Of a stretch of 64,000 nt of DNA, positions 20,205 through 57,859 are shown one piece after another; the stretch's first letter is position 1; each line of letters starts with the position of its first letter. The notes below the pieces were generated by a model. That model had not been told where the DNA came from, ran no database searches, and saw only the letters and a list, made by a program, of their open reading frames with translations. A program made the position numbers and the translations under genes. The stretch lies in the NCBI RefSeq assembly GCF_037031285.1, contig NZ_JAYEZO010000002.1:434001-498000 (forward strand), written 5' to 3'. This DNA comes from Halobellus sp. LT62 (lineage in GTDB: Archaea > Halobacteriota > Halobacteria > Halobacteriales > Haloferacaceae).

Positions 20205-20299
20205 CCGCGCTCTCGACGAAGACGCGCGAAGTAAGCACTGCAGGAGTGAGCGGAGCGAACGACGAAGCGCACAGCGAGCGCATCGAGTCGAGAGCGCGG
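20205..20299. repeat. 13-bp inverted repeat with purine-rich interior
   Basis: CCGCGCTCTCGAC (20205-20217) and GTCGAGAGCGCGG (20287-20299) are perfect inverted arms. The 69-base interior includes GAGCGGAGCGA (20248-20258) and other AGCGA-type words. It forms the first part of the 358-bp gene-free stretch between crcB2 and the tRNA-Asp genes. Confidence 0.65.
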
Positions 20300-20357
20300 G
20301 GGCTTCCGAGTGGGTACTGTTCTATTGCGTCAATCGACTCGTTCCACTGAGAACTCG

Positions 20358-20413
20358 GCGGGATTTGAACTTCACTCGTTCCGCTTCGCTCCACTCGCTA
20401 GTTCAAATCCCGC
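20358..20413. repeat. Inverted repeat made from the tRNA-Asp T-arm
   Basis: GCGGGATTTGAACT (20358-20371) and AGTTCAAATCCCGC (20400-20413) are a perfect 14-bp inverted repeat with a 28-base loop. Thirteen bases of the arm equal the T-arm of the adjacent tRNA-Asp genes (as read on the plus strand). The loop, on the minus strand, contains GGAGCGAAGCGG. It is not a tRNA: there is no acceptor, D-arm or anticodon arm. Confidence 0.7.
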
Positions 20414-20479: not shown

Positions 20480-20481
20480 AG

Positions 20482-20554
20482 CGCCCGAGGCGGGATTTGA
20501 ACCCGCGTCACGACCGTGACAGGGTCGTATGATGGGCCACTACACCACCCGGGC
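20482..20554 (-). tRNA. tRNA-Asp (GTC), copy 2
   Basis: Minus-strand 73 nt beginning GCCCGGGTGGTGTAGTGG, with a 7-bp acceptor stem (one G-U), anticodon loop reading GTC within CCTGTCACGG, T-arm GCGGGTTCAAATCCCGC and discriminator G, typical of Asp. No CCA is encoded. Identical to the copy at 20579 and only 24 bp from it. Confidence 0.95.
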
Positions 20555-20578
20555 ACACCGTCGGAGCCAAGCACAAAG

Positions 20579-20651
20579 CGCCCGAGGCGGGATTTGAACC
20601 CGCGTCACGACCGTGACAGGGTCGTATGATGGGCCACTACACCACCCGGGC
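20579..20651 (-). tRNA. tRNA-Asp (GTC), copy 1
   Basis: Identical in sequence to the copy at 20482. It lies promoter-proximal, about 30 bp downstream of a TATA-like CTTAATTA (complement of 20681-20688), so both copies are probably cut from one transcript. The gap to atpD (20,652-20,828) contains only this promoter and the end region of atpD. Confidence 0.95.
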
Positions 20652-44469: not shown

Positions 44470-44544
44470 GTCCGGGTTAGGGTAGTGGACCATCCTTCAG
44501 CCTTGTGGAGGCTGAGACGCGGGTTCGATTCTCGCACCCGGACC
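44470..44544 (+). tRNA. tRNA-His (GTG), left copy at the element boundary
   Basis: 75 nt including the His-specific extra G at the 5' end and C at the discriminator position. The anticodon loop TTGTGGA, closed by CAGCC/GGCTG, gives GTG. T-arm GCGGGTTCGATTCTCGC. A GTATTTGAC promoter-like box lies about 30 bp upstream in host-type DNA, so this copy is probably the expressed one. It lies inside the left 84-bp direct repeat (44462-44545). Confidence 0.95.
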
Positions 44545-44606
44545 TAATTTCCGTTTCTCACGCCTTCTACCGTTGGTTTTCGGCACCCATCAAACAAGAG
44601 GGAGAA

Positions 44607-44717
44607 ATGATGCCGAAAGCCTATAGGATTAGAACGAACGCCGAACCCGACACCGTACAGCGATTACCAACCTCTCGGGACAAATACAATTCAGAGGTGG
44701 AATATGCCACTTCCTGA
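44607..44717 (+). CDS. 36-aa frame overlapping the integrase start
   Basis: Starts MMPKAYRIRTNAEPDTVQRL, preceded by GAGGGAG at Shine-Dalgarno distance, and ends 14 bp inside the integrase gene. Small basic proteins in this position are sometimes recombination directionality factors, but nothing in the sequence proves it. A leader-peptide role for coupling integrase translation is another possibility. Confidence 0.35.
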   Translation: MMPKAYRIRTNAEPDTVQRLPTSRDKYNSEVEYATS

Positions 44718-45810
44718 TGCTGTTCCGCTTGTCATTGAGGGCGACCGAGAGTACCTCAATCGTAGACAGTTGGAAGACTACAAACAACACAGGGAAGAGG
44801 TGCTTGAGTGGCTATGGACGGTCGGTAAAGACCCGGAACGGAGTGAGGGGTACAGCAAATCAGTCACCCGGAATATGGCATACCGACTCTCCAAGATTTA
44901 CAGGTGGGTATGGGAACGTGAAGATAGATATACTACCGAAATAACCCGAGAACACGCTGATTCATACCTACGTGAAATCGCGGGGAAGGATTGGAAAAAC
45001 TCAAACAAATCACAGTATCTCAAGGCCCTCAAACGTCTATTCAAGTGGAAGATACACGAACTCGGTGGAAGCCCGTGGGAGCCTGAAATCACGTTCTATC
45101 CTTCCTCGGAAGAGTATCAGCCTCAGGACTATCTTACCCTTGAAGAACGGAAGCGTCTCCGAGAGGCGTCGTTAGAGTACGGTGCTGTTCCTTCCTATGG
45201 GAACCTCACTCCAAGCGAACGCTCCCGTTGGAAAGCCCACATCGCTCAACGACTTGAGAAACCAAAGGAGAACGTCTCAAAAGTGGATTGGGAGCGTGTG
45301 AACAGTTGGAAGGTTCCCTCACTTGTGGCTACAAGTTTGGATGCGGGCTTACGCCCGGTCGAAGTAGAGCGTGCTGTTACTTCTTGGGTGGATATACAGA
45401 ATCACGTACTACGAATCCCGAAGGACGAATCATCCAAAAACCGTGACAATTGGATTGTGAGTCTACGGGAACAAACTGCCCGCTCACTCAAGATGTGGTT
45501 GGATGAGCGGGAGAATTACGCTAAATACGATGGGGCGGATGCGCTGTGGCTCACCCGCCGGAAGAATCCATACCAATCGGAGAGTTTGAACTATCTTCTA
45601 TCTCAACTATGCGATGAAGCCGGAATTGATACTACTAATCGTAAGGTGAGTTGGTACAGCATCAGGCACTCTACAGGCACCTATATGACCCATTTTGAAG
45701 ACCTTGGTGCGGCCAAGGCTCAACTCCGTCACAAGTCGGAACGAACCACGCTCAAGTACGACAACGCTCCCGTCGAAGAAAGAAGAGACGCCTTGGATAA
45801 GATGGGCTGA
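44704..45810 (+). CDS. int: Tyrosine recombinase / integrase
   Basis: 368 aa. The N-terminal half is a core-binding SAM-like domain (EITREHADSYLREIAGKDWK). The C-terminal catalytic domain has the first catalytic Arg in SLDAGLRPVEVERA, the second Arg in SWYSIRHSTGTYM (the usual H of HxxR is Tyr), a His in AQLRHKSERTT, and the nucleophile Tyr in LKYDN. It most likely catalyses recombination between the element and the host tRNA-His. AGGTGG lies about 8 bases before the ATG. The gene reads inward from the left repeat. Confidence 0.92.
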   Translation: MPLPDAVPLVIEGDREYLNRRQLEDYKQHREEVLEWLWTVGKDPERSEGYSKSVTRNMAYRLSKIYRWVWEREDRYTTEITREHADSYLREIAGKDWKNSNKSQYLKALKRLFKWKIHELGGSPWEPEITFYPSSEEYQPQDYLTLEERKRLREASLEYGAVPSYGNLTPSERSRWKAHIAQRLEKPKENVSKVDWERVNSWKVPSLVATSLDAGLRPVEVERAVTSWVDIQNHVLRIPKDESSKNRDNWIVSLREQTARSLKMWLDERENYAKYDGADALWLTRRKNPYQSESLNYLLSQLCDEAGIDTTNRKVSWYSIRHSTGTYMTHFEDLGAAKAQLRHKSERTTLKYDNAPVEERRDALDKMG

Positions 45811-45870
45811 ACAAGCAAACCGGCTCTTACGGCAGAAGGACTATCTATTCACTTTCTGAAGACCTTCCCA

Positions 45871-46467
45871 ATGTCATTCGATTTCTCGGAGTGGATAGAA
45901 GCCTACGGGAAGGTCGCCCCGGATGAGTCAATAGAGTACAAGGATGACTCCGGGGCTTGGTGTGAAGAGACAGACTATCGATTAGGGTCAATTTCATCTG
46001 AGTTTCAGCGACGTGGCTACATCTCCCGAGAAGATTTACGTAAAATCGGGAAGTGGAAAGCAGGGGGTCGGATTGACCACCACATTAGGAAGAACAGCAC
46101 ATCAGAGGTCGAAGACCAAAGCGAACTCGCGCTTCAATCTTCGGGCGATGTAGAGGCTGTAGAGGAGTTGACCAAACTAACAGGTGTGAGAGTTCCTATG
46201 GCGTCCACTATTCTCACAATGGCGAAACCAACGGAATTCGCTATCATTGATTATCGGGCGCTTCGCGCTCTTGGCGTTGTGAAGCCTGAACTCTTGGATG
46301 CTCAATCATACACCGACTACTCGACCTTTATGGAGTGCTTCAGAAATCCAACCTCAGAAGGATACGTCTTCTATATGGACATAGTACGGAAGATAGCCCG
46401 GCAAGAAGACCTGTCCACTCGGGATGTGGATATGGCTCTTTGGGCCTACGACAAATCTATGACCTGA
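45871..46467 (+). CDS. Helix-hairpin-helix DNA-glycosylase-fold-like protein
   Basis: 198 aa. The central segment LTKLTGVRVPMASTILTMAK, continuing PTEFAIIDYRALRALG, has the shape of an HhH motif followed by the substrate-pocket/Asp helix of HhH-GPD (Ogg/endonuclease III) proteins. The N-terminal part is polar and unlike standard glycosylases, and no iron-sulfur cysteines are present. Its place directly behind the integrase, among restriction genes, suggests a DNA-base-targeting role in defence or element maintenance (inference). Confidence 0.55.
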   Translation: MSFDFSEWIEAYGKVAPDESIEYKDDSGAWCEETDYRLGSISSEFQRRGYISREDLRKIGKWKAGGRIDHHIRKNSTSEVEDQSELALQSSGDVEAVEELTKLTGVRVPMASTILTMAKPTEFAIIDYRALRALGVVKPELLDAQSYTDYSTFMECFRNPTSEGYVFYMDIVRKIARQEDLSTRDVDMALWAYDKSMT

Positions 46468-46472
46468 GTTAA

Positions 46473-47051
46473 TTACCGAAGGTGCTGTAGAATCTGTAGA
46501 ATACGGAATCCGAGTTCCCCATAGTCCTTCTCCGTCTCAGATGCCTTCTCCTGTAGTTCCTTAATTTTCTTAGAATAGCGTTCGTTGATGACCAACTCCA
46601 ATTCCATCCCCGTCTCTTCCTCAAAGTCGGCTTCCAAGGCATTCAGCCCGCCCAAGAGATATTCTTCATCTGAATTGCCGGGAACAACCGGACTCCATAG
46701 TTGGAACACGTATGAATCAGCGGAGTCGAAGAGTTCAGTCACGTAGTTCTTGTCTGAGTTGAACTTCTGCCACAGGCGCTCTAAGGAGTGCTGATAGTCT
46801 TTTGCCCCGTATTCGGCCCATCGGTTGGTGTCCGGAGTTCCTACGTAGTGAAGACCGTTCAGGTGCGTTACAACCTCGCAAGTGTAGACTATCTGTTCCC
46901 CCTCATCGGTTTTGTCAACTCCTATCACATCAATTTCCGATTGGTCGCCTTCTTTCTGAGGGCGCTGATTATACATCACCAACTCGCACTCTTTTATCAG
47001 TCTGAGATACGCCCCAACAAGGAGTTCACCTGATTCCGGTTGTGTAGTCAT
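46473..47051 (-). CDS. Putative PD-(D/E)XK-like nuclease protein (gene 2 of a pair)
   Basis: About 192 aa from ATG 47051 (MTTQPESGELLVGAYLRLIK). GDQSEIDVIGVDKTDEGEQI, then VYTCEVVTHLNGLHYVG, has the D...(D/E)-x-(V/K) spacing of restriction-type folds, with CEV where ExK is usual. This is a weak match. The frame stays open upstream, and a GTG at about 47128 that overlaps the preceding gene's stop is an alternative start, which would couple the two genes. It ends facing the HhH gene, 5 bp away. Confidence 0.5.
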   Translation of the reverse strand: MTTQPESGELLVGAYLRLIKECELVMYNQRPQKEGDQSEIDVIGVDKTDEGEQIVYTCEVVTHLNGLHYVGTPDTNRWAEYGAKDYQHSLERLWQKFNSDKNYVTELFDSADSYVFQLWSPVVPGNSDEEYLLGGLNALEADFEEETGMELELVINERYSKKIKELQEKASETEKDYGELGFRILQILQHLR

Positions 47052-47112
47052 AATCCACTTATCTGTTTCCGGCGGTCTTCCCAATCGTTCGGTACTCGCC
47101 GATACTTCATTC

Positions 47113-48459
47113 TCAAACCTCTCCGTCACCGTTATCCCTGTATTCTTCAGGAAGCGAAAGAAGAGTATCATCTTGATAGAACATTTCTTCAATATCGCCT
47201 TTGTCTGTACCCTCTTTCAGATTTAGTTCTACAAGATGATACAAACCAACAGTAGAAAGAACCTTGTAGTCTCCTCGTTGCTCCATATACTTCTCTACGT
47301 TTGGCTCTATGCTAATATCGCGCTCATTCGGCGCAGTTCCCATCTCCGGATTCACAATCAACAGGCCCGAAACATTGTCGTCGGGGTTTTCTGCCACTAC
47401 GTTCTCAACCCAATCATCCAATTGTCTTCCTTTGCTTTTCTTGATGCCACCCGTTGTTCCCGTGATTTCAAGAGCAAACTGAGTTTTATCCGTGTGTAGG
47501 ATTCCATCTCGTTTCCCCGGTACTTCGCCGTCTACTGTGAAGCCAAGTTCGCGTAATGCTTCTCTTGTTACTTCCTCAAGGTTAGTGCTTGTCTCATAGA
47601 GTAACTTCTTGAATTTCGTTAGCGACTCTAATTCCTCTTCTAATTCTTCAATCTCTTCCTGCTTCTCTTGGATACTGTATTCTATGCCTTCCTCATTTGG
47701 AAGACGGTACTCAGAAAGCCAAGCAGGGGGAGCGCGGCCTTCCACATTAGTTTCAATTCCGAATACGTGATGGAGGGTGTCTTTGACAAAATCAGAATAC
47801 GTAATAGATTCATCCGGTGGAATAATAGCGACATAGCCGTCATCTGAACCATAACTATGAGCGACCTTTGTTGCTATAGATTCTGAATAAGAGTTCTCCG
47901 CGATAGTTTCCGAGTTGTAACTTGATTCGTGAGTAGAATGATTGATTATTTTTTCCCAATCAAAACGGCGACCAAAGAACCATTCCCACTCTTCATCAAT
48001 TGTCTGTACAGATTCACCCGACTCATCAGTATCAATGTCAACTGAAAATGGAAGCCAATTCAAAAGTTCATAATCATCGTAAGGCTCTACCTCATTGTCT
48101 TTCTGTCTCGCGTGTCTACCCATCTGCGAAAGTGTTGTCGTATTGCTCTTTTTCGGCTTCGTCGTCGTATTCCCCATACTCACAGTAAGAGACTCGGGTA
48201 GATAGACCACCAAGAACCCTCCTGTTCTAATAAACGTAGTAACATCTCCGGAGTCGAACACAATTGGAGATTCATCTGATTCGTTGTAGGGATGGTCGTA
48301 GTCTTGAGCCGCTGCTTCTAACGTTCTCAGATTGACAAACACGATATCGTAATCTTTGAAATTGGTAGATTCATCCCACCCTGCAGATTTGTGGACAAAT
48401 GGCAACTCACTTCCTTTTGATAAGATTCTCATAAGCGGGAGTGTGGTTCGGTGTGCCAT
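47113..48459 (-). CDS. Multidomain protein: Rossmann-like N-terminus, coiled coil, nuclease-like C-terminus
   Basis: 448 aa. N-terminal part (about 1-95) with DYDIVFVNLRTLEAAAQDYD and VTTFIRTGGFLVVYLPE, reminiscent of glutamine-amidotransferase-like sensor folds. The middle is Ser/Thr-rich. Residues 270-310 are a coiled coil (EEIEELEEELESLTKFKKLL). The C-terminus has REALRELGFTVDGEVPGKRD and FALEITGTTGGIKKSKGRQL, matching the D...E-x-(T/K)-G pattern of RecB-like nucleases. First gene of a minus-strand pair. No exact family recognised. Confidence 0.55.
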   Translation of the reverse strand: MAHRTTLPLMRILSKGSELPFVHKSAGWDESTNFKDYDIVFVNLRTLEAAAQDYDHPYNESDESPIVFDSGDVTTFIRTGGFLVVYLPESLTVSMGNTTTKPKKSNTTTLSQMGRHARQKDNEVEPYDDYELLNWLPFSVDIDTDESGESVQTIDEEWEWFFGRRFDWEKIINHSTHESSYNSETIAENSYSESIATKVAHSYGSDDGYVAIIPPDESITYSDFVKDTLHHVFGIETNVEGRAPPAWLSEYRLPNEEGIEYSIQEKQEEIEELEEELESLTKFKKLLYETSTNLEEVTREALRELGFTVDGEVPGKRDGILHTDKTQFALEITGTTGGIKKSKGRQLDDWVENVVAENPDDNVSGLLIVNPEMGTAPNERDISIEPNVEKYMEQRGDYKVLSTVGLYHLVELNLKEGTDKGDIEEMFYQDDTLLSLPEEYRDNGDGEV

Positions 48460-48643
48460 AATATTGGCGTAGTAATTCCAAATCGAAGGGATGGGTTCAC
48501 GCGCCGGGGGTAGAGTACGGAAAGACTGAACCGTTAGACAGACCGCTCAAGGCTCTCAATACCCCTGTAGCCCAAATCTTTGAGTGTAGGGTGTCCCGCT
48601 AAACCGAGTCTTCACTTTATATCCCTTCTTCAATTCGCATACA

Positions 48644-48775
48644 ATGGCGTATTCCGACCGTACTACCATACCCTGTGAAAAGTCCACGCGAGAGCGGTTG
48701 AAAAGTCTGAAACGCGGAGGTGAAAATTGGGATTCTCTACTGAGGAAGTTGAGCGAATCCTACGACCCCAACTAA
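48644..48775 (+). CDS. 43-aa VapB/RHH-like small protein
   Basis: MAYSDRTTIPCEKSTRERLK, then SLKRGGENWDSLLRKLSESY. The ERLKSLKRGGExWDxLL pattern is common in small haloarchaeal antitoxin-like proteins. The TATA box (TTTATATC, about 48615-48622) is 25 bp before the ATG, so the gene is leaderless. No toxin gene is adjacent; it may be an orphan or act as the element's repressor. Confidence 0.6.
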   Translation: MAYSDRTTIPCEKSTRERLKSLKRGGENWDSLLRKLSESYDPN

Positions 48776-48867
48776 TCTCACCGCTAACCAATCAGAACGA
48801 AGTGAACGGGTAGAGGCAGGTTCCCAAGCCCGATGCCTCACCCACATAGGATGGAGTCACCTAAACG

Positions 48868-49662
48868 ATGACAAACGAAACTACCGGATATAACGCTATA
48901 AACATTGGCCTTTCTGAGTCGAATAGCATACAAATAGACAATTCTGATAGCCCTATTATTGGATATGGTGTAGAGTATGCTAAAACATATGCGGAAAGGG
49001 TGAAGAGAGCGGAACAGATTCACAAAGACCGCTGTGACGACGTTCCCGCTGATGTAATCGGGGGAACCGCCAAAGCGCAAGAAGATTATCACCCATCCGA
49101 ATCTTGGAATGAAGTACCGTCTGTTCGTGATGGATACGATGACCGGCGAGACAAACTGTTCTCAGGTGGATGGGCAAATCAAGACGTGTTCACTTCCCTG
49201 TATAATGGTGAGTTCGGGAACTACAACCAACTTCAAGCGGAATCATATCTCGCGGCTATGTTCTCCTTCACTTTCGGGAAGAACCACGACATAGTAGCCT
49301 ATGAGATGGAGCAACTTTGCTTTGATACGGAGTGGGAGATTAATCCCCGACACCGGGTCTATGTCTTGGATGTGGTCGAAGACATTCCTTCTATTTATTG
49401 TGAAGGGATTGACCTAACAACGAAATTTAACGTGGCTCAAGAAATTCTACTCTTCACCAACGTAACTGTATCAGACCTTGATTCCCGTCTTGATGTGGGT
49501 AGAAGGCATATTTCCAACGTTCTTCCTGTTCTTCACGCTGAAGGATGGGTGAAAAGAGAAACAAGTAGTAGAGTCAATGAGCCGGATATTTGGAAGGATA
49601 ATGGACTTACAACAGACTATCTTGATATGCTCTTAGAAGCAAAGGAAAAGTTGGAAGAGTAG
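48868..49662 (+). CDS. Replication-protein-like remnant with C-terminal HTH
   Basis: 264 aa. The middle stretch DKLFSGGWANQDVFTSLYNG and AESYLAAMFSFTFGKNHDIV resembles the helix-bundle domain (HBD) that follows the primase core in NrS-1-like primase-polymerases of plasmids and viruses. The primase core itself is absent. The C-terminal 90 residues form a winged-helix-like unit (VSDLDSRLDVGRRHISNVLP). It may be a replication initiator, a truncated primase or a regulator. Composition is typical of the island. Confidence 0.45.
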   Translation: MTNETTGYNAINIGLSESNSIQIDNSDSPIIGYGVEYAKTYAERVKRAEQIHKDRCDDVPADVIGGTAKAQEDYHPSESWNEVPSVRDGYDDRRDKLFSGGWANQDVFTSLYNGEFGNYNQLQAESYLAAMFSFTFGKNHDIVAYEMEQLCFDTEWEINPRHRVYVLDVVEDIPSIYCEGIDLTTKFNVAQEILLFTNVTVSDLDSRLDVGRRHISNVLPVLHAEGWVKRETSSRVNEPDIWKDNGLTTDYLDMLLEAKEKLEE

Positions 49663-50005
49663 TTTACCGTCTCTATTAATTAGAGTATTCTTCGTTACTA
49701 TGTATAGTATAGCCATTTCCCTATGCATACATTTCCTACCAAGCGTTGACATTTCCCTTGGTGAGGCGAGACTATACACAGGTCGGTGCTTTCTCTATAC
49801 AAGAATTTAGACTCAATAGCGCCTGATACGCCCATACAGCCTGTTCTTCTCTTCTACAACCAATGCCTCTCACCGGGGCGTTAGAATGCGCTGTGACCCC
49901 TTCTCAATCCATAGCGCGGCTTCAGGCGTGTTGGCTTTGTCCGGCTTGAAGAGTGATTCGGGCTGAAGGTTGAGGGAACAATAATAGGGGTACTGAGGAA
50001 GTTAC
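49663..50005. other. Gene-poor stretch in the element
   Basis: AT-rich with short dyads around 49700 (TATAGTATA, TATGCATA). On the minus strand an open frame of about 43 codons lacks a start and could be a relic, but its length is within chance for this composition. No reliable gene seen. Confidence 0.4.
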
Positions 50006-50275
50006 CTACTCTCGCGGATTTTCGGCTTGTTGCTCCTTACACCACTCAAACAACTCTTCTCTCAGGTCTTTAGACGTTTCTCCGAACAGACTACCAAGAC
50101 GGTATCCAAGGTTTTCCCAAGTTAGATTCGGGAGTTCAGGATTCTCTTTGTATTTCGACTTGTCCGGGTCATCTTTGAGGGCTTCTGTCCATCCGGCATT
50201 GAAATTCCTTAGGTGGTTTGAATCGGGATTCGTGTTCCGCTTGTCTTCTTCGTAACTCAGTAGGTCATCGGACAT
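50006..50275 (-). CDS. Small acidic helical protein
   Basis: 89 aa from ATG 50275 (MSDDLLSYEEDKRNTNPDSN). The C-terminal half LTWENLGYRLGSLFGETSKD, then LREELFEWCKEQQ, looks like a conserved small domain that I recall from haloarchaeal mobile elements, without a known function. The upstream TTG at 50302 would add ten residues; the ATG is preferred. Confidence 0.55.
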   Translation of the reverse strand: MSDDLLSYEEDKRNTNPDSNHLRNFNAGWTEALKDDPDKSKYKENPELPNLTWENLGYRLGSLFGETSKDLREELFEWCKEQQAENPRE

Positions 50276-50946
50276 ACACTCATATGTGTTATTGGGTATC
50301 AAGATATTTTCCCTACTGAGTAAAGTAGCCTGAGATTCGCTGTTTCAGATGAAATTCTGTCGGAGTCCCACGGGGTTCTAACATACAAAGGGGCGGGGGT
50401 GTTCGTACTTGTTAATATAGGGCAAGTATCCCCGATAGGTTCAGATTCTGTGAAAAATCTCTAAACCACTACCCTCAAGTCTGAGAAGTGCCCAAAATCG
50501 GAGAAAACCTACCCCCTCAGAAGTGGACAGATGGGAGTAACACATAATCCGAATACAGACCCCTTCCTCTACTGATTCAGATGAAGCGGAGTGCTGATAG
50601 AGAGAAAGGCTGTGTGATGTACCTGTGAGTGCGTAGGTGCGCTCTAATGCGTTTCTACTGTCTGTCTGCCCTTCTCAGCACACACGAATAGATGAGTAGA
50701 GAAGGCAGATAGGGCGCTCTCACGGGTCTACCTATTCCCACTTCTTCACCGCTACTCCTTACTTGCGCTTCTTGCTGTGTTTTCGTGATTTGAGGAACGG
50801 AATAATGGAGAACAGAATACCGATGAAAGTTGCCCATAGACTTGACGCGGCAGAACTTGAGCCGGGTGGCGAGTGACCGTTCTCTCAGACTGTGGAAGAG
50901 TACGTGGGCACCGAACCCTTATTCAGGAAGGTTATGAAGAGCCACT
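50276..50946. other. 671-bp stretch without a secure gene
   Basis: Mostly non-coding in appearance. On the minus strand, about 50760-50885, a frame reads SSLWATFIGILFSIIPFLKS and ends KHSKKRK, which looks like one membrane span with a basic tail. It has no usable start codon. Elsewhere only short, inconsistent frames are seen. Confidence 0.4.
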
Positions 50947-51531
50947 ATGCCACCATCGGACGAATATGAGGAAAAGATAGCAAACTCAATAGAAGAAATC
51001 TACGACCTTCAGTTAGAAGCATTACGACGCGCCGGAGTCGCTAATGAAAAAGAGCAAGGTCTTGAGATTGAGTCAACGGAAGCGGTTAGACTGTTTCGGG
51101 AAGCGACAGGATACCTACTCCGTATGCGGGAACTCCGAGATGACGTTGAGATGGAACTTCGTAATAGCCAATTCTACCACATTGAGCGCGTTATCGGACA
51201 TATTGAAGACTACAATCGGATTCTTCAAGACATACGAAAGAACGATTCCTTTGAAAACGCAATACAAAGTTTCAATGAATTATCCTATGGCCCCGGAAAT
51301 AAGCAATATGCCAACCGTGCGGGATACAAAGTAACTATTGAAGGGCGTTCAGATTTTGTGCCCTCAATCTATGTTTCAGTAGATGGACTAAAAGGTAAGC
51401 AACGACAACAGAATGTACCAATGGATGGGACGACAATTGTTGAGAATTTTGTGTATCCTCGCTTAATCCGTCTAACAAAAGATGTAGAAAACTCTCTTAT
51501 CGGAAGGTGCGCATCCGGTAAGCGACCATAG
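50947..51531 (+). CDS. Hypothetical helical protein of the element
   Basis: 194 aa. Start MPPSDEYEEKIANSIEEIYD; two long helical stretches (EAVRLFREATGYLLRMRELR; HIERVIGHIEDYNRILQDIR), then a beta-rich C-terminal third (GYKVTIEGRSDFVPSIYVSV). No family recognised. Composition matches the element. The 96-bp gap after it holds no gene. Confidence 0.55.
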   Translation: MPPSDEYEEKIANSIEEIYDLQLEALRRAGVANEKEQGLEIESTEAVRLFREATGYLLRMRELRDDVEMELRNSQFYHIERVIGHIEDYNRILQDIRKNDSFENAIQSFNELSYGPGNKQYANRAGYKVTIEGRSDFVPSIYVSVDGLKGKQRQQNVPMDGTTIVENFVYPRLIRLTKDVENSLIGRCASGKRP

Positions 51532-51627
51532 CCCATTTTCTCACATCTCGGATATGTCTCAAGATAATCTATGAAAGCGCCCGAAGAGCAAAGAGTGTAG
51601 TTCCCGTAGTAGGACCCGAGAGAACCA

Positions 51628-51771
51628 ATGATTTGCCCTGAATGCTCTTGGCATTGGGCCTTTGAGGATGACGGAATTGTATGTCCATTTTGTGCGAGGG
51701 CTATAGGAACGCCAACCGATGATGACCCTCAGGAAGCCCACGAAGCGACAACCGAAGTTCAGGAAGCGTGA
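51628..51771 (+). CDS. 47-aa zinc-ribbon protein
   Basis: MICPECSWHWAFEDDGIVCP continues FCARAIGTPT and an acidic tail. The two pairs, CPEC and CPFC, fit a rubredoxin-like zinc ribbon. The stop is followed immediately by the ATG of the next small gene, so the two are co-translated. Such mini zinc ribbons are common in haloviruses and plasmids. Confidence 0.6.
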   Translation: MICPECSWHWAFEDDGIVCPFCARAIGTPTDDDPQEAHEATTEVQEA

Positions 51772-51903
51772 ATGACTGATTCCAATAGAACTCCCGAAGA
51801 ACAGGCGGTCATCAACAAGGTCGCGGAGAGGAAGGGTGAAGAGTGGGCTGAAGAACACGCGGGACTCATCATTGCTCAGGCTCAGTTGGTTGGAGAGATT
51901 TAG
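51772..51903 (+). CDS. 43-aa acidic helical protein
   Basis: MTDSNRTPEEQAVINKVAER continues KGEEWAEEHAGLIIAQAQLVGEI. Predominantly one helix. Its ATG is the first codon after the stop of the zinc-ribbon gene. No family recognised; the tight pairing is the main support. Confidence 0.5.
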   Translation: MTDSNRTPEEQAVINKVAERKGEEWAEEHAGLIIAQAQLVGEI

Positions 51904-52351
51904 GAACCTATCCTAAGGTCTCCCGATGGATTCGTCTGAGAGGGCGAGAATAAGCCCGTGTATGTCTTCGTCTGTTGATGAAGGGAATCCACCGTCTATT
52001 CTGAGGTGTCCTCAGCGGCTTCAGATAGCCCTCAGTTCGATTATGATTTTATAAAGAGAATGCGGAGCGCGGGGTAGTACGACTGAAAAATTTCACAGAA
52101 GGGCGACGGACTAAACGACGGAGATACTGATATGGGTATCAGAAGGGACCAATCTTTCTCGCTGATAGGTTTGATAACCCCAACGAATTTTTGCTAAATG
52201 GTTCCACGTATATATTAAATTTAAAAGAGTCAATCTTCAGCGCATCCGGACTGAATACAGACTTTTATCACTATTCTATCAGTATAGAGGCGACAGGTGA
52301 ACGGGGATTTATCGGTAAGAACTTTCATCCCACCGTGAATTGGAACGTCTA
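51904..52351. promoter_or_regulatory. 448-bp AT-rich region before the restriction-modification gene
   Basis: No gene seen. It contains several TATA-like runs (TTTTATAAAG about 52050; ATATATTAAATTTAAAA about 52211; TTTTATCAC about 52262) and would hold the promoter and control sites for the large enzyme gene that follows. Restriction genes are often tightly controlled during establishment. Confidence 0.45.
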
Positions 52352-55300
52352 ATGGCTGATTCGTCTGCTATTCTGAACGCACTTCACGGGGTGGCTTCCC
52401 GTATTACCGATGATAGTAGTGAACGGGACGTTGAGACTGCTTTTCTCCAAGAGGGGTTCTTCACACAGTTAGGCTATCAGGGAATCGGACACGACCTTCG
52501 GAGCGAGTGGAAACTTCCTGATGACCGACGCCCGGACTATGCGACCCTGAACGATAATCAGGCTGTCACCGCTGTCTATGAGTTCAAGAATCCGAGTGAA
52601 GACCTATCCGGACACGAATCTCAACTCTTCCACTACACCAAGGAACTCAAGGCTGAGTACGGGGTTCTTCTCAATGGACGCGAGTTCCGGTTATTCAGAC
52701 GAACAAACGGCTCTCATACCCGCTTGGTAACGCTGAACCTCGCTGATGCAACCCAATCTGATGTTCGGGAACTCTCGGGTGCGTTGGAGAAGCCAACGTG
52801 GGACACGACCGACCCGGATATTATCACTCAATACGTCGGAGAACTTGAGCCGGTTTCTCTTGAGGATGAACTTGGGCGAGAAGAGTTCTTTGAGACGTTT
52901 AGATTGGAAGAGGGGAGTCCCTTCGCTGAACTTGTTATATCTTCTATGGAACTTCTTCACGAACTCCGAGATGAGCAAGAAGCGAAGTTCGTTGAAGGGG
53001 CCTACGACTTTTGGGATGCTTCATACGCAAGTGAGCCGGATGATATTCCGGATTCGTGGGAGCCGTTCATCGATGGGGAGCAGTCTCTTCGTGACTTTAT
53101 GTTCTGCTTGGAGTCCGGTCACGCGCTACTCGCCCGGCTTCTGTTGGCAAAAGCGAGTGAAGACCACGATTTCTTCCCCGACAACAGGGGACTCCGTAGG
53201 TACTTTGATGAACTTCCCGGCTTCGGGGATGAGATTGATTTAGACGCTTACCCCGTTGCCGCTCACGGATTGATTGATGATATGCGGAATCAACTTGTTG
53301 AGAGTCTGTTTGAGGATGACCTGTTCATTTGGTGGACTGATGCGTTCCAAGAGTCTACAACCTCTCAGCACGCAAATCCATTCAATCGCTTCCGAGATGT
53401 GGCCCGTGAAGGGAGTGGCGTTACCCGAGTGAGCGACCCCGTCCGAGAGAAATTTAGCCGGGCTGTGGCTAACGTGTTCTTCTCCATTCTGAAGTTCGAC
53501 TTTTCACGGATAGAGGGCGACCCGTTGGGGAACCTCTATCAGCGGTACTTCGACCCTGAGACGCGGAAGGCCCTTGGTGAGTTCTACACCCCACAGCCCG
53601 TGATTGATTACATTATGGACGGGGTAGATTATGATGTAGGAGTTTCCGCTGAACGCTTGATTGACCCTGCCTGTGGCTCAGGGACGTTCCTTGTTGAAGC
53701 GGTGAGGCGATACAAGCAGGACGTTCGACGATACAACGACGACCCCGATTGGGAGAATCATCTTACGGAACTATGCTCTCGCCCACACATCGTTGGGCTT
53801 GATATTCACCCGTTTGCCGTGCTAATGGCCCAAATCCGGTTTATGGTGGAAATCCTGCCGGAGTACCGAGAAGCCAAGCGGAACAATCCTCAGTTCACGA
53901 TTCGACGGCTCCCGATATTCCGAACAGACAGCCTTCGGAATGAGCGAGAGAGTACCGGGGCAGACCTTGGAAGTGACGGACAACGACAACTCACCTTTGA
54001 TTCGCTCACCGAAGACAATCAGGACGTACTCATTCCTGTTCCTCTCCCCGTTGAGGTGGATGAAGATGAAGTGGAAGAGACGGACGGCGAGTTCCTTGTT
54101 CAGCGCGTCCGTATGCCGCTATTCAATACGATTCAACTACAAACCAATGTGAGCAATTTCGGGGAGTATTTCGCGGCTCTACAGGGCGTCTTGGACGTTG
54201 TAAAGTACCATATGAGCGAAGAATGGTGGGAGTATGGTGGCGGTCTTCAGGAAGGTATCTCACGCTATACAACGCGAGAGTATGAGGGTGTAGAGGAGTT
54301 CTTCGCGCCGTATGTTGATGATATTCTGAGTACCGTCCGATACCTACGGGAAGAACACGGTGACGGTCGCCTGTTCAAGATGTTGGAAGACAGCGTTCTG
54401 TCGCTTGTTGTGAAGAACTACTTGGACTACGAATACGTGGTCGGGAATCCCCCTTACGTCCGGATTCAACATCTACCTGATTCTCAGAAGGACTACTTCG
54501 CTCAGTTGTACGACTCTACGACAGGGAATTACGACATTTACTGTCCCTTCTACGAACGGGGATTAGATTGGCTCAGCGAGGGAGATGGTCGGCTTGGATT
54601 CATCACACCGAATCAGTTTATGGTGACAGACTATGGGGAAGGAATCCGGAAGGTGATGCTCCAAGAAGCCCAAATCGATGAGATATACGATTTCCGAGAT
54701 TCGGGTGTGTTTGAAGACGCAACAAACTACCCGGCAATAGTAATCCTGAGCGATGAGGATGATGAATCAATTCGCCGGGAGAATCAAATCCGCTGTGTCC
54801 GGGTGAAAGCGAACGTGGATGATGATAGTGGAAGAGCGTTGGATGAAGAGATTATTCAGGCTGTTCGTGACCACCGAGGAGAACCGGGGTATAGCGATGA
54901 ATATATTGATGTTTTTGATTATCCACAGGGTGAACTCGGAGAGGGTTATTGGCCCCTGATGCCGCCTGAAGAACTTCAAGTTTTCAACAAACTCGCAAAT
55001 CAAGGTAATACCTCAATTGGAGAGGCAACTGATGCGGTATTCCAAGGTATTCGTACAAGCAAGAACAAAGTGTATATCGTTGAGGTGTTGGATGCAGACC
55101 GGATTGAATCAACGGACACGGGCGGAACGGTTACAGTAATTCCTTCAGGGTTCTCAGAAGAGTTTGAAATTGAGACAGACCTGTTACGTCCGTTCTTACA
55201 AGGGAATGACGTTGAACGGTGGCGAGGGGAGTGGTCGGGGAGTCACGTTATCTACCCATACCACGTTCAGAATGACGACGGTGAGCGGAGCGCCACCTTG

Positions 55301-56209
55301 TACTCAGAAGAAGAACTACGGCAAGAGACTCCGTTGACGTGGGAGTATTTCCGGGCCTACGAAGATGAACTTAGAGGAAGAGAGAGGGGGGCTTGGGAAG
55401 ATAGCGATACTTGGTGGGAGTTCGGTAGAACACAGAATCTTGAGAAATTTGAACAGCGGAAAATTGTTCAGGCCCATATCTGTAGAAATGCTACGTTTAT
55501 GATAGATGAAGCGGGGACGTGGTACTTCACTACAGCATATGGGGTCTTGCTTGAGCCGGACTACCGAGAAATCACCGAAGAGGTTGCTTGTCAACTGAAC
55601 TCAAAGGCTCTTGATTTCTACTTCAAGCACATCACCACGGTCAAGGCAGGGGGATACTACGAATACCGCTCTCAGTATGTTGAGAAACTTCCCTGTGTGG
55701 TTAGCGAGAATTCTTCCTTCCCGGTGATGCGGGAAAAATCGGAATCTATCGTAGATACCATCGATTTAGAAAGTAAGACAGAACGCTTCCCGGAAGCCTA
55801 CTTGGGTGACTTTGAGGGCGAGTTAGATTACATTGATTACGAATGGCAAACACGCCGGTATCCGGTGGATGCTCACATACAGGCACAGGCAGACGGGACG
55901 TTCGCTGTCGAAGCCGGACGGTCGGATAGCATCACAGACCCACGGATGGATAGCCAAGACCGCGCCAAGTACGTTCACGCCGCTGTAGATGGCCGCAACG
56001 TGAAGAGCGGGGAAGAGATGAGTATCCCCATTCCTCGGCGAGATACAGGCGTGAGGGCGCTCTTGGATGCGTTAGAGGAAGACAGGGAGACTGTAGAGAA
56101 TACGGATATTGGTGAGTTGGAAGCCGATATTGACCAAGCCGTGTATAAGATGTTTGAGTTGACTGAGGAAGAGCGCGAAGTGATTGAAGACTACTTGGAA
56201 GTGTTCTGA
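52352..56209 (+). CDS. Single-chain restriction-modification enzyme (type IIG-like, adenine methyltransferase)
   Basis: 1285 aa. N-terminal nuclease-like domain with RRPDYAT...AVYEFKNP (PD-(D/E)XK shape, about residues 60-80). A helical connector follows, then an N6-adenine methyltransferase with GEFYTPQPVIDYIMD, motif I DPACGSGTFL (about 440) and motif IV VGNPPYVRIQHL (about 698). The C-terminal about 350 residues should recognise the DNA target. It resembles Eco57I-type enzymes, which cut and methylate with one polypeptide. Start ATG 52352; a TTG at 52340 is possible. No separate helicase or specificity gene is nearby. Confidence 0.87.
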   Translation: MADSSAILNALHGVASRITDDSSERDVETAFLQEGFFTQLGYQGIGHDLRSEWKLPDDRRPDYATLNDNQAVTAVYEFKNPSEDLSGHESQLFHYTKELKAEYGVLLNGREFRLFRRTNGSHTRLVTLNLADATQSDVRELSGALEKPTWDTTDPDIITQYVGELEPVSLEDELGREEFFETFRLEEGSPFAELVISSMELLHELRDEQEAKFVEGAYDFWDASYASEPDDIPDSWEPFIDGEQSLRDFMFCLESGHALLARLLLAKASEDHDFFPDNRGLRRYFDELPGFGDEIDLDAYPVAAHGLIDDMRNQLVESLFEDDLFIWWTDAFQESTTSQHANPFNRFRDVAREGSGVTRVSDPVREKFSRAVANVFFSILKFDFSRIEGDPLGNLYQRYFDPETRKALGEFYTPQPVIDYIMDGVDYDVGVSAERLIDPACGSGTFLVEAVRRYKQDVRRYNDDPDWENHLTELCSRPHIVGLDIHPFAVLMAQIRFMVEILPEYREAKRNNPQFTIRRLPIFRTDSLRNERESTGADLGSDGQRQLTFDSLTEDNQDVLIPVPLPVEVDEDEVEETDGEFLVQRVRMPLFNTIQLQTNVSNFGEYFAALQGVLDVVKYHMSEEWWEYGGGLQEGISRYTTREYEGVEEFFAPYVDDILSTVRYLREEHGDGRLFKMLEDSVLSLVVKNYLDYEYVVGNPPYVRIQHLPDSQKDYFAQLYDSTTGNYDIYCPFYERGLDWLSEGDGRLGFITPNQFMVTDYGEGIRKVMLQEAQIDEIYDFRDSGVFEDATNYPAIVILSDEDDESIRRENQIRCVRVKANVDDDSGRALDEEIIQAVRDHRGEPGYSDEYIDVFDYPQGELGEGYWPLMPPEELQVFNKLANQGNTSIGEATDAVFQGIRTSKNKVYIVEVLDADRIESTDTGGTVTVIPSGFSEEFEIETDLLRPFLQGNDVERWRGEWSGSHVIYPYHVQNDDGERSATLYSEEELRQETPLTWEYFRAYEDELRGRERGAWEDSDTWWEFGRTQNLEKFEQRKIVQAHICRNATFMIDEAGTWYFTTAYGVLLEPDYREITEEVACQLNSKALDFYFKHITTVKAGGYYEYRSQYVEKLPCVVSENSSFPVMREKSESIVDTIDLESKTERFPEAYLGDFEGELDYIDYEWQTRRYPVDAHIQAQADGTFAVEAGRSDSITDPRMDSQDRAKYVHAAVDGRNVKSGEEMSIPIPRRDTGVRALLDALEEDRETVENTDIGELEADIDQAVYKMFELTEEEREVIEDYLEVF

Positions 56210-56213
56210 AGAC

Positions 56214-57296
56214 CTACCAACCACCTTCAAACTCAACTTCAAGACCGCATCTCTCGGCAAATCGCCGTATGTAGCGTATTTTATCCTCTTTGCTCAGATT
56301 GGTGAAGAGGTAGTAACCACCGGGCAATTCTCGGTACGTCTTCATCTCGCGGTTATCAGGGTGGGCCGGATGGTCGTTGATTACGGCATTTTTATTGCCG
56401 GGAACGTAGGGAATTGAGTCCATCTTAGAAATCAAGTCATAGTTCTCAATCAAGTGGCTTACCGCCTCAGCCATTACCTTTGACTGATAGTTATCTCCGA
56501 ATGTGGCTAAGGTTTGTCCGTCGTTCTGAAGCCTAATGACGTAGTCACCGGACGCATCTGTGGAAACTTCAGAAACAGACACGGAAGCACCCTCATCTTC
56601 CTCATCCGGGGAAACAGCACCATCTGAAACTATCTCCGTGTCAATATCCTGAATCAGCCTATCAATCATCTCCTTGGCTTGAGATTCAGCCGGAGAAGAA
56701 ATCGCGTCTGAAACCTCAACGGTCAACAACTCCGTCACTTCTGTAGCCAACCTGTCCTTCTCCGATTCAAGCACTCTCCGGGCTTGTTTCAGATTGTTAA
56801 TTCGGGTGGCAATCTTCTCAGAATTGCCGGTCTGAATGGCGTCCTTGGTGAATGCCCGAAGAATCGTAATCCTCTCCGGAAGATTCTGAAGTTCCGTATC
56901 CGCGAGAGCGTTTACATTGACCTTAGAATCAATAACTTGTCTCCGATAGAACTCATACTCGGCTCCATTGGTTAGAACGCCCCAATTCACGTCTTCGCTC
57001 TTCATATACTCCTGAATCTGTTCTCTATGGTCATCTGTGAGCGGTGTATCAACGCCCTTAGCCTCAATAAACGCGACCGGGGCACCTTCTAAGACTAACG
57101 CATAATCTACCTTGAACGTCCGACGAAAAGCCTTCACCGGGTATTCATGTTGGGTGTCTGCCGGAATTTCCCACCCAAGAAGTTCAAGAAAGTCCTGTAA
57201 GATAGCGGCCTTTGTAGTCGCTTCCCCCATCTGTGGCGAATCCTCTATCGTAGATTGAGCGTGTTCAACATATCTTCTCACCACCTCTTCATCCAT
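56214..57296 (-). CDS. HsdR-N-like (type I restriction enzyme R N-terminal) protein
   Basis: 360 aa. FKVDYALVLEGAPVAFIEAK is the D...E-x-K nuclease core of HSDR_N domains, in a layout that continues REQIQEYMKSEDVNWGVLTN and YEFYRR. No helicase motor follows; instead there is a coiled coil (LKQARRVLESEKDRLATEVT) and a novel C-terminal domain. It converges with the restriction-modification gene, with 4 bp between stops, and is the last gene before the right repeat. Confidence 0.8.
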   Translation of the reverse strand: MDEEVVRRYVEHAQSTIEDSPQMGEATTKAAILQDFLELLGWEIPADTQHEYPVKAFRRTFKVDYALVLEGAPVAFIEAKGVDTPLTDDHREQIQEYMKSEDVNWGVLTNGAEYEFYRRQVIDSKVNVNALADTELQNLPERITILRAFTKDAIQTGNSEKIATRINNLKQARRVLESEKDRLATEVTELLTVEVSDAISSPAESQAKEMIDRLIQDIDTEIVSDGAVSPDEEDEGASVSVSEVSTDASGDYVIRLQNDGQTLATFGDNYQSKVMAEAVSHLIENYDLISKMDSIPYVPGNKNAVINDHPAHPDNREMKTYRELPGGYYLFTNLSKEDKIRYIRRFAERCGLEVEFEGGW

Positions 57297-57523
57297 AATT
57301 GTCTACAGACTGTTCAGCCCAATGTTATCAAAGTATCCGAACAGTCCTTCTAACCCGTATTGTCTGAAGGACAAACGAAGTGGGGTTTTTTCACGGTAGT
57401 CTTGCTAATGTGGGTGGGTAAAGAGAATCAACGGAAGGTCGTGAAAACACGGAAATTAAGGGTTAGAACCCGTTTAGACAGATAGCGCCTCTACACCAAG
57501 GCGGCAAAATCGGACAGGTGCGT

Positions 57524-57598
57524 GTCCGGGTTAGGGTAGTGGACTATCCTTCAGCCTTGTGGAGGCTGAGACGCGGGTTCGATTCTCGCACCCGGACC
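57524..57598 (+). tRNA. tRNA-His (GTG), right copy at the element boundary
   Basis: Same as the left copy except one base in the D-arm region (T at 57545 for C at 44491). All arms and the GTG anticodon are intact, so it could function. The upstream sequence is element DNA with no clear TATA box, so its expression is doubtful. It lies within the right direct repeat (57516-57599). Confidence 0.93.
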
Positions 57599-57636
57599 TT
57601 CTGAGGAACGTAGTGGCGAAGAAGGCCGGAAGGCGA

Positions 57637-57859
57637 AATCGAACCCTGCCAGTCGCGCGCAGCGCAGTAGTGAGCGAGCACGTCTGGATTCGGTTCGATT
57701 CTCGCACCCGGACCTTCTCTCTGAGACTATAACCGACGAGCACCGCGAAGCGTGTGCTCGCCACGAGTGTCGAAGGAGAAGTCGACGAGAGAATCGAATC
57801 AGGGAGCAACTGAGCGCAGCGAAGTTGCGAGTGAGGTTCGATTCTCGCACCCGGACCTT
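57637..57859 (+). repeat. Two relic tRNA-His 3' ends with inverted T-arm fragments
   Basis: Copies of the tRNA-His 3' end (core GGTTCGATTCTCGCACCCGG) recur at 57692-57718 and 57835-57859, after the intact copy ending at 57598. Each is preceded by an inverted piece of its T-arm: AATCGAACC (57637-57645) against GGTTCGATT (57692-57700), and GAGAATCGAA (57789-57798) against TTCGATTCTC (57838-57847). Inside the second lies a hairpin GCAACT-GAGCGCAGCGA-AGTTGC (57806-57828). The remaining gap to 57,994 holds only the promoter of the next gene. Confidence 0.75.

Follow-up and report, generated by a model that had tools for sequence, protein, structure and literature searches.

Short noncoding units carrying an inverted copy of the adjacent T-arm follow tRNA genes in the Halobacteria

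The window analyzed here, the whole 64,000-nucleotide stretch from Halobellus sp. LT62, carries two tandem tRNA-Asp genes on its minus strand (Table 1). Beginning 68 nt past the 3′ end of the second gene, a perfect 14-bp inverted repeat occupies positions 20358 to 20413, with arms GCGGGATTTGAACT and AGTTCAAATCCCGC enclosing a 28-nt loop that reads AGCGAGTGGAGCGAAGCGGAACGAGTGA on the tRNA strand. The original prediction that this repeat is built from the T-arm of the neighboring tRNA was confirmed. Followed along the tRNA strand, the tRNA 3′ end leads into a trailer hairpin (H1), the antisense T-arm GCGGGATTTGAACT, the loop (H2), the T-arm AGTTCAAATCCCGC, and a decayed acceptor strand. The last two belong to tail1, a direct copy of the tRNA 3′ part in which the T-arm (20357 to 20370) is intact and 16 of 22 positions are identical. 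As single-stranded DNA, the region from 20358 to 20413 folds better than its dinucleotide shuffles (z = −2.5). In a congener (G007, locus L053), the trailer sequence TTTTTCCGACATC is present without the H1 hairpin. A separate dispersed repeat lies at 20205 to 20299, with 13-bp arms (CCGCGCTCTCGAC and GTCGAGAGCGCGG) and a loop of GA words; about a dozen copies of this type occur in the genome, 74 to 100% identical over the matched part, and their arms differ from copy to copy.

The second site in the window is a tRNA-His gene (57525 to 57598), behind which stand two tandem units, each closing with 23 nt identical to the 3′ end of tRNA-His. It had been proposed that each of these relic 3′ ends is preceded by an inverted piece of its own T-arm, and such pieces were found at 57637 to 57646 and 57789 to 57798. 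In similarity searches with this array, two plasmids matched over the first 76 bases only, i.e., the tRNA part, and no phage matched. Upstream, a 13-kb integrative element (44471 to 57598) is bounded by two complete tRNA-His genes. It encodes a tyrosine integrase, an Eco57I-type restriction-modification protein, and an HSDR_N-domain protein and looks like a defense island; its left tRNA has no unit beside it.

Table 1. Positions in the window of the tRNA genes, unit parts, and element genes described in the text
Feature	Position	Strand	Basis
tRNA-Asp(GTC), first of two tandem copies	20578..20651	-	ARAGORN, Rfam
tRNA-Asp(GTC), second copy; tail0 (T-arm to 3′ end) at 20482-20503	20481..20554	-	ARAGORN, Rfam
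H1 trailer hairpin at tRNA-Asp, TTTTTCCGACATC...GATGTCGGAAAA, GA-rich loop	20422..20480	-	sequence
Antisense T-arm, reading GCGGGATTTGAACT along the tRNA strand	20400..20413	-	sequence
H2 loop AGCGAGTGGAGCGAAGCGGAACGAGTGA	20372..20399	-	sequence, folding
tail1, direct copy of tRNA-Asp 3′ part	20350..20371	-	sequence
Tyrosine integrase (PF00589), tRNA-His element	44704-45810		
Eco57I-type restriction-modification protein, tRNA-His element	52340-56209		
HSDR_N-domain protein, tRNA-His element	56214-57296		
tRNA-His(GTG), with tail0 at 57576-57598	57525..57598	+	ARAGORN
H1, first tRNA-His unit	57599..57636	+	sequence
Inverted T-arm AATCGAACCC, first tRNA-His unit	57637..57646	+	sequence
H2 loop, family 2 (..TGCCAGTCGCGCGCAGCG..GCACGTCTGG..), first tRNA-His unit	57647..57691	+	sequence
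tail1, exact 23-nt copy of tRNA-His 3′ end	57692..57714	+	sequence
H1, second tRNA-His unit	57715..57788	+	sequence
Inverted T-arm GAGAATCGAA, second tRNA-His unit	57789..57798	+	sequence
H2 loop, second tRNA-His unit; starts TCAGGGAG like family 1, ends GAGTGA	57799..57834	+	sequence
tail2, exact 23-nt copy of tRNA-His 3′ end	57835..57857	+	sequence

We parsed 61 units (58 distinct) from the window's genome, congeners, and named haloarchaea. The order of parts is tail0, H1, antisense T-arm, H2, tail1, and tandem repetition is frequent. Units measure about 70 to 170 bp, are noncoding, and leave no room for a typical gene. The antisense piece corresponds to tRNA positions 52 to 64 and the direct copy to positions 52 or 53 to 73. 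Pairing of the antisense piece with positions 54 to 63 was built into the search; beyond this core, position 64 paired at a frequency of 0.64 (versus 0.27 for foreign tRNAs), position 65 onward was near background, and position 53 was a G.T wobble in 41 of the 58 units. tail1, copying positions 52 to 73, is 86 to 100% identical per position and stops at the tRNA 3′ end, so that a direct repeat of the tRNA 3′ end flanks the insert, as is characteristic of tyrosine recombinase elements. The arms match the local tRNA even where its T-arm is unusual (Gly-ccc, His, Met, and Arg-gcg), and no fixed terminal inverted repeat of the kind that defines miniature inverted-repeat elements (MITEs or SMRs) was found at the unit ends. 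Because the inverted piece is limited to positions 52 to 64, it is not an old tRNA copy in opposite orientation, the alternative to which the original prediction was exposed. Inversion of the whole 3′ tail (T-arm, acceptor, and trailer) was likewise rejected: the acceptor part fits foreign tRNAs just as well as the local one, and pairing falls to background at position 65. In another loop family (L024, L025, L042, and L071), one additional base sits in the T-loop of tail1 (GTTCACAATCC or GTTCAGAATCC), resembling an extrahelical base; four different tRNAs of the genus share it, in an unchanged position. A strict pattern for this family matched only the window's own genome, and the extra base was dropped as a class-wide feature.

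To determine how widely such copies occur, we scanned the 43 tRNA genes of the window's genome (3.23 Mb) for copies of their own T-arms. An inverted copy (at least 12 of 14 positions, within 200 nt of the gene) was present downstream of 17 of the 43 genes, upstream of none of the 43, and in 0 of 860 shuffles; inverted T-arms are enriched at other tRNA genes, as the original prediction would have it. Direct tail copies (at least 17 of 22 positions, same 200-nt flanks) were detected downstream of 17 tRNA genes, upstream of 1, and in no shuffled sequence, the single upstream match presumably being the tandem tRNA-Asp. Across the class, a hairpin pattern independent of the loop (GGATTYGAA, 18 to 48 nt, TTCRAATCC) matched in 265 of 292 Halobacteria genomes, and the same pattern read backward matched in none. 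Chance and ordinary intergenic palindromes are ruled out by the upstream, shuffle, and reversed-pattern controls. Some lineages are poor in these hairpins, with 0 in all 3 genomes of family f10 and 0 to 2 in family f6.

The proposed test of whether loop contents are homologous between loci came out positive within each of several loop families. The commonest, family 1, has the form TCAGGGA-stem-GACCGTGG. In a phylum-wide sample, this family was detected in 51 of 82 Halobacteria genomes versus 0 of 311 others. A stricter family 1 pattern matched 39 stretches among GTDB contigs, of which 38 carry haloarchaeal titles and one that of an unclassified euryarchaeote MAG. Each of the five exact family 1 loops in the window's genome is located at a tRNA (Gly-ccc, Gly-tcc, Val-tac, Arg-tct, and Leu-caa). 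Among 40 hairpins in the named genomes, 29 lie 31 to 231 nt after a tRNA on the same strand, 6 follow an intron-containing tRNA-Trp not called by ARAGORN, 1 is next to a relic tail, and the other 4 are too near the end of the fetched stretch to place; the missed tRNA-Trp genes account for most hairpins that had seemed far from any tRNA. The sole judgeable family 1 hairpin without a full tRNA (L104, 6720 to 6840) is preceded by a truncated tail, CCCATCGTGCCCG, and may represent a displaced array bordering an integrated element. The reading of the units as virus-borne was rejected: the broad-pattern matches in IMG/VR are mostly 47 to 49 nt and seemingly internal to bacterial tRNA-Ser genes; the specific family 1 pattern occurred in a single contig of the viral collection, with a complete tRNA-Glu beside the unit. 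The units are restricted to tRNA genes and to the Halobacteria.

The loops are conserved as structures. Inner stem variants of family 1 are paired (GG..CC, GC..GC, GT..AC, and AC..GT), and the first two stem pairs are Watson-Crick in 81 and 84 of 90 hairpins, versus 58 and 31 after reshuffling. In 32 compact H2 loops, 25 both-side changes were counted versus 7.2 in shuffles. Such compensatory stem changes are a hallmark of structured RNA and fit RNA and single-stranded DNA alike. On our reading, Watson-Crick doublets and tandem G.A steps would take turns in the recurrent AGCGA words (GA-GC-GA-GC-GNA-GC-GA-GC-GA), and only one strand of such a sequence can pair well. In keeping with this, the tRNA strand folded better than its complement in 90 of 90 family 1 hairpins with both RNA and DNA parameters, and in 52 (RNA) or 49 (DNA) of the 58 units, although many of these sequences are related, and the counts are hence not independent. 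Stem mismatches of the G.T and A.C types were equally rare (5 versus 7 in family 1 stems; 5 versus 5 in parsed units); this lack of a G.T excess leans toward DNA rather than RNA, the counts being small. The hairpins are imperfect and strand biased, with a conserved bulge and wobble, and may resemble integron attC sites in shape.

Comparison of related species revealed units that come and go at the same tRNA. At tRNA-Arg(tct), the G001 sequence directly past the tRNA is identical at 69 of 70 positions to the G007 sequence 97 bp further on, and the 97 bp present in G007 and missing in G001 constitute one complete unit, tail1 included (likewise G002). At tRNA-Gly(gcc), G023 carries one more unit than G017 (137 bp, on the side next to the tRNA), and the older unit is almost the same in both. 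At tRNA-Asp, the congeners G012, G003, and G007 have no units, G004 and G005 have one, and G006 has three with mixed loop families. A single genome can also carry identical loops at different tRNAs, as at Leu-taa and Arg-cct in G081 and at Val-gac and Met-cat in G077. Units are present or absent exactly, as wholes, between related species, whether by gain or by loss; exact loss could be ordinary recombination between the 22-bp direct repeats, and no excised form was observed. H1 persists without the rest of the unit at tRNA-Glu in G001, G004 to G006, and G010. The tRNA-Arg arrays of congeners also contain, in varying order, a second type of module, one built on the acceptor strand. In the tRNA-Arg(tct) loci L262, L264, L265, and L269, this module comprises TGAAATCnnnGATTTCA, CTCGCGCGACG, TACTCCC..GGGAGT, and CCCGTCGCGCTCG, the last repeating tRNA positions 61 to 73, and its GA words lie on the strand opposite to those of the T-arm units. 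At tRNA-Leu(taa) of G071 (L301), units 1 and 3 look identical over their full length and unit 2 is of another family, which looks like block duplication or reinsertion.

The 3′ ends of tRNA genes are classic docking sites of mobile DNA. The idea that a mobile repeat uses tRNA ends as targets gains in strength from the same design at many tRNA families, the homologous loops, and the exact gain or loss at 3′ ends. The accompanying claim that each unit copies the local tRNA stands as far as the match of the T-arm goes, but compensatory change or template correction could have adapted the arm later. We consider it plausible, at a confidence just short of even, that the units are tiny nonautonomous cassettes which undergo site-specific recombination at the T-loop/3′ end of the tRNA, the hairpin serving as their folded attachment site. 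A DNA recombinase would act between the T-loop and position 73, and cassettes would go in and out as units. The antisense T-arm would fold the single-stranded cassette end, its hairpin stem rebuilding the double-stranded T-arm target, a putative parallel to the rebuilding of integron attC sites by folding; tail0 would keep the tRNA functional after insertion. Carrying no gene, the cassettes would therefore be nonautonomous. Simple unit excision does not explain the tRNA-Glu loci with H1 left alone, and recombination alone gives no account of an inverted arm that matches each tRNA, for which selection for proper folding, or correction of one arm on the template of the other, would each suffice.

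The strongest rival is action at the RNA level in the tRNA trailer. The unit would then be transcribed as the tRNA 3′ trailer and work as a terminator, processing guide, or switch, its antisense T-arm pairing with tail1 or the tRNA. Stem covariation, the better folding of the tRNA sense strand, and the location of units always downstream and on the tRNA strand are what such a role predicts, but G.U pairs do not exceed A.C in the stems, unlike in typical structured RNAs, and close species differ in presence or absence at the same tRNA. Many units, moreover, come after a T-run directly behind the tRNA, and a T-run is the usual stop for archaeal transcription. When four unit-bearing loci were searched against Rfam, the tRNA alone scored above the cutoff, with no match to the unit. 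Why the acceptor strand is copied exactly and directly as far as position 73 is also left unexplained, and we regard an RNA-level role as unlikely, if still to be reckoned with.

Template switching or fold-back synthesis is improbable in our estimation. Slippage at GA-rich hairpins would copy the local tail first inverted and then direct, the AGCGA loops serving as turning points, and this would readily yield the direct-inverted-direct order, the fit of the arms to even unusual local T-arms, and the apparently duplicated unit blocks such as those at tRNA-Leu of G071. Fold-back copying does not, however, lead one to expect the common G.T at position 53 or the tandem G.A mismatches; the inverted copy ends at position 64 across tRNAs, its acceptor part shows no preference for the local tRNA, and the loop words are conserved class-wide. 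That each tail copy is the attR of a lost virus or plasmid seems to us very improbable. Exact repeats of tRNA 3′ ends are typical of att sites, and an integrase-bearing element does lie upstream of the tRNA-His units, but that element has no unit at its left tRNA, the unit spacing is constant at 70 to 170 bp with conserved H1 and H2, and the one viral-collection contig with family 1 has a complete tRNA beside the unit.

There is scarcely any likelihood that a Cas1-family enzyme recognizes the T-loop and makes the duplicate of the tRNA end by CRISPR/casposase-like insertion. The A. boonei casposase does read the T-loop sequence TCAAATC, which precedes its insertion site at a tRNA 3′ end, and makes a short duplication of 14 to 15 bp (PMC6614799), but casposons need Cas1 and carry genes and terminal inverted repeats. 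The units have no terminal inverted repeats, and their geometry differs, the duplicated stretch being located upstream of position 73 and ending there. Cas1 was missing from the window's genome in its present state and from most of the congeners that have units (none in 30 of the 40 genomes searched), on which ground a casposon product was rejected.

The units resemble several known systems. Integron cassettes also form tandem arrays of short units at one anchor site, and attC sites seem to share the imperfect, single-strand-specific hairpin at the unit end, in which the terminal loop varies and unpaired bases are conserved; they differ in that the units here lack genes, take their stem from the T-arm of the host tRNA, and are anchored at a tRNA gene. 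An integron proper was rejected, as the units hold no genes and IntI-type integrase (TIGR02249) was above the cutoff in 0 of 40 genomes; the weak matches resemble tyrosine recombinases of the generic sort, which the Escherichia coli and other controls gave too. The main text of a study of archaeal integrons makes no mention of Halobacteria (PMC9668308). Another likeness is to tyrosine recombinases confined to the Halobacteria, for example, of the SNJ2 type, which would be candidate enzymes. Three integrase families are found in Halobacteria alone, and the SNJ2 att is 13 to 14 bp of a tRNA 3′ end (PMC8371274), which makes them natural candidates. Like the units, the elements of these recombinases have a direct repeat that ends exactly at the tRNA 3′ end, their att is short, and they are restricted to the Halobacteria (PMC8371274), but they are gene-bearing viruses or plasmids, whereas the units are gene-less and have an inverted T-arm. 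Haloquadratum SMRs, MITEs, and PATEs are likewise short, noncoding, gene-less haloarchaeal repeats (PMC3119063); the terminal inverted repeats of SMRs and MITEs are fixed, in contrast to the host-matched arms of the units, which are found at tRNA genes only.

We found no description of tRNA-tail units in the open-access literature searched, and subscription papers may hold one. The units seem to be short noncoding repeats of an undescribed sort, and they would be a new kind of element if dedicated folded-DNA recombination were proven. It is possible, though doubtful, that they represent an undescribed class-wide system of tRNA-anchored, gene-less cassettes whose single-stranded DNA ends fold into a T-arm copy, with a T-loop-reading recombinase inserting them on the side next to the tRNA, as an independent parallel to integron attC/attI recombination. 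Tiny elements built across a whole class from the host tRNA's own T-arm are seemingly undescribed, and they account for "relic tRNA ends" that might otherwise be mistaken for scars left by prophages. With hundreds of genomes and several tRNAs in each, they also offer a large natural data set on how an insert comes to match its target, and they may reveal a folded-DNA recombination route in archaea.
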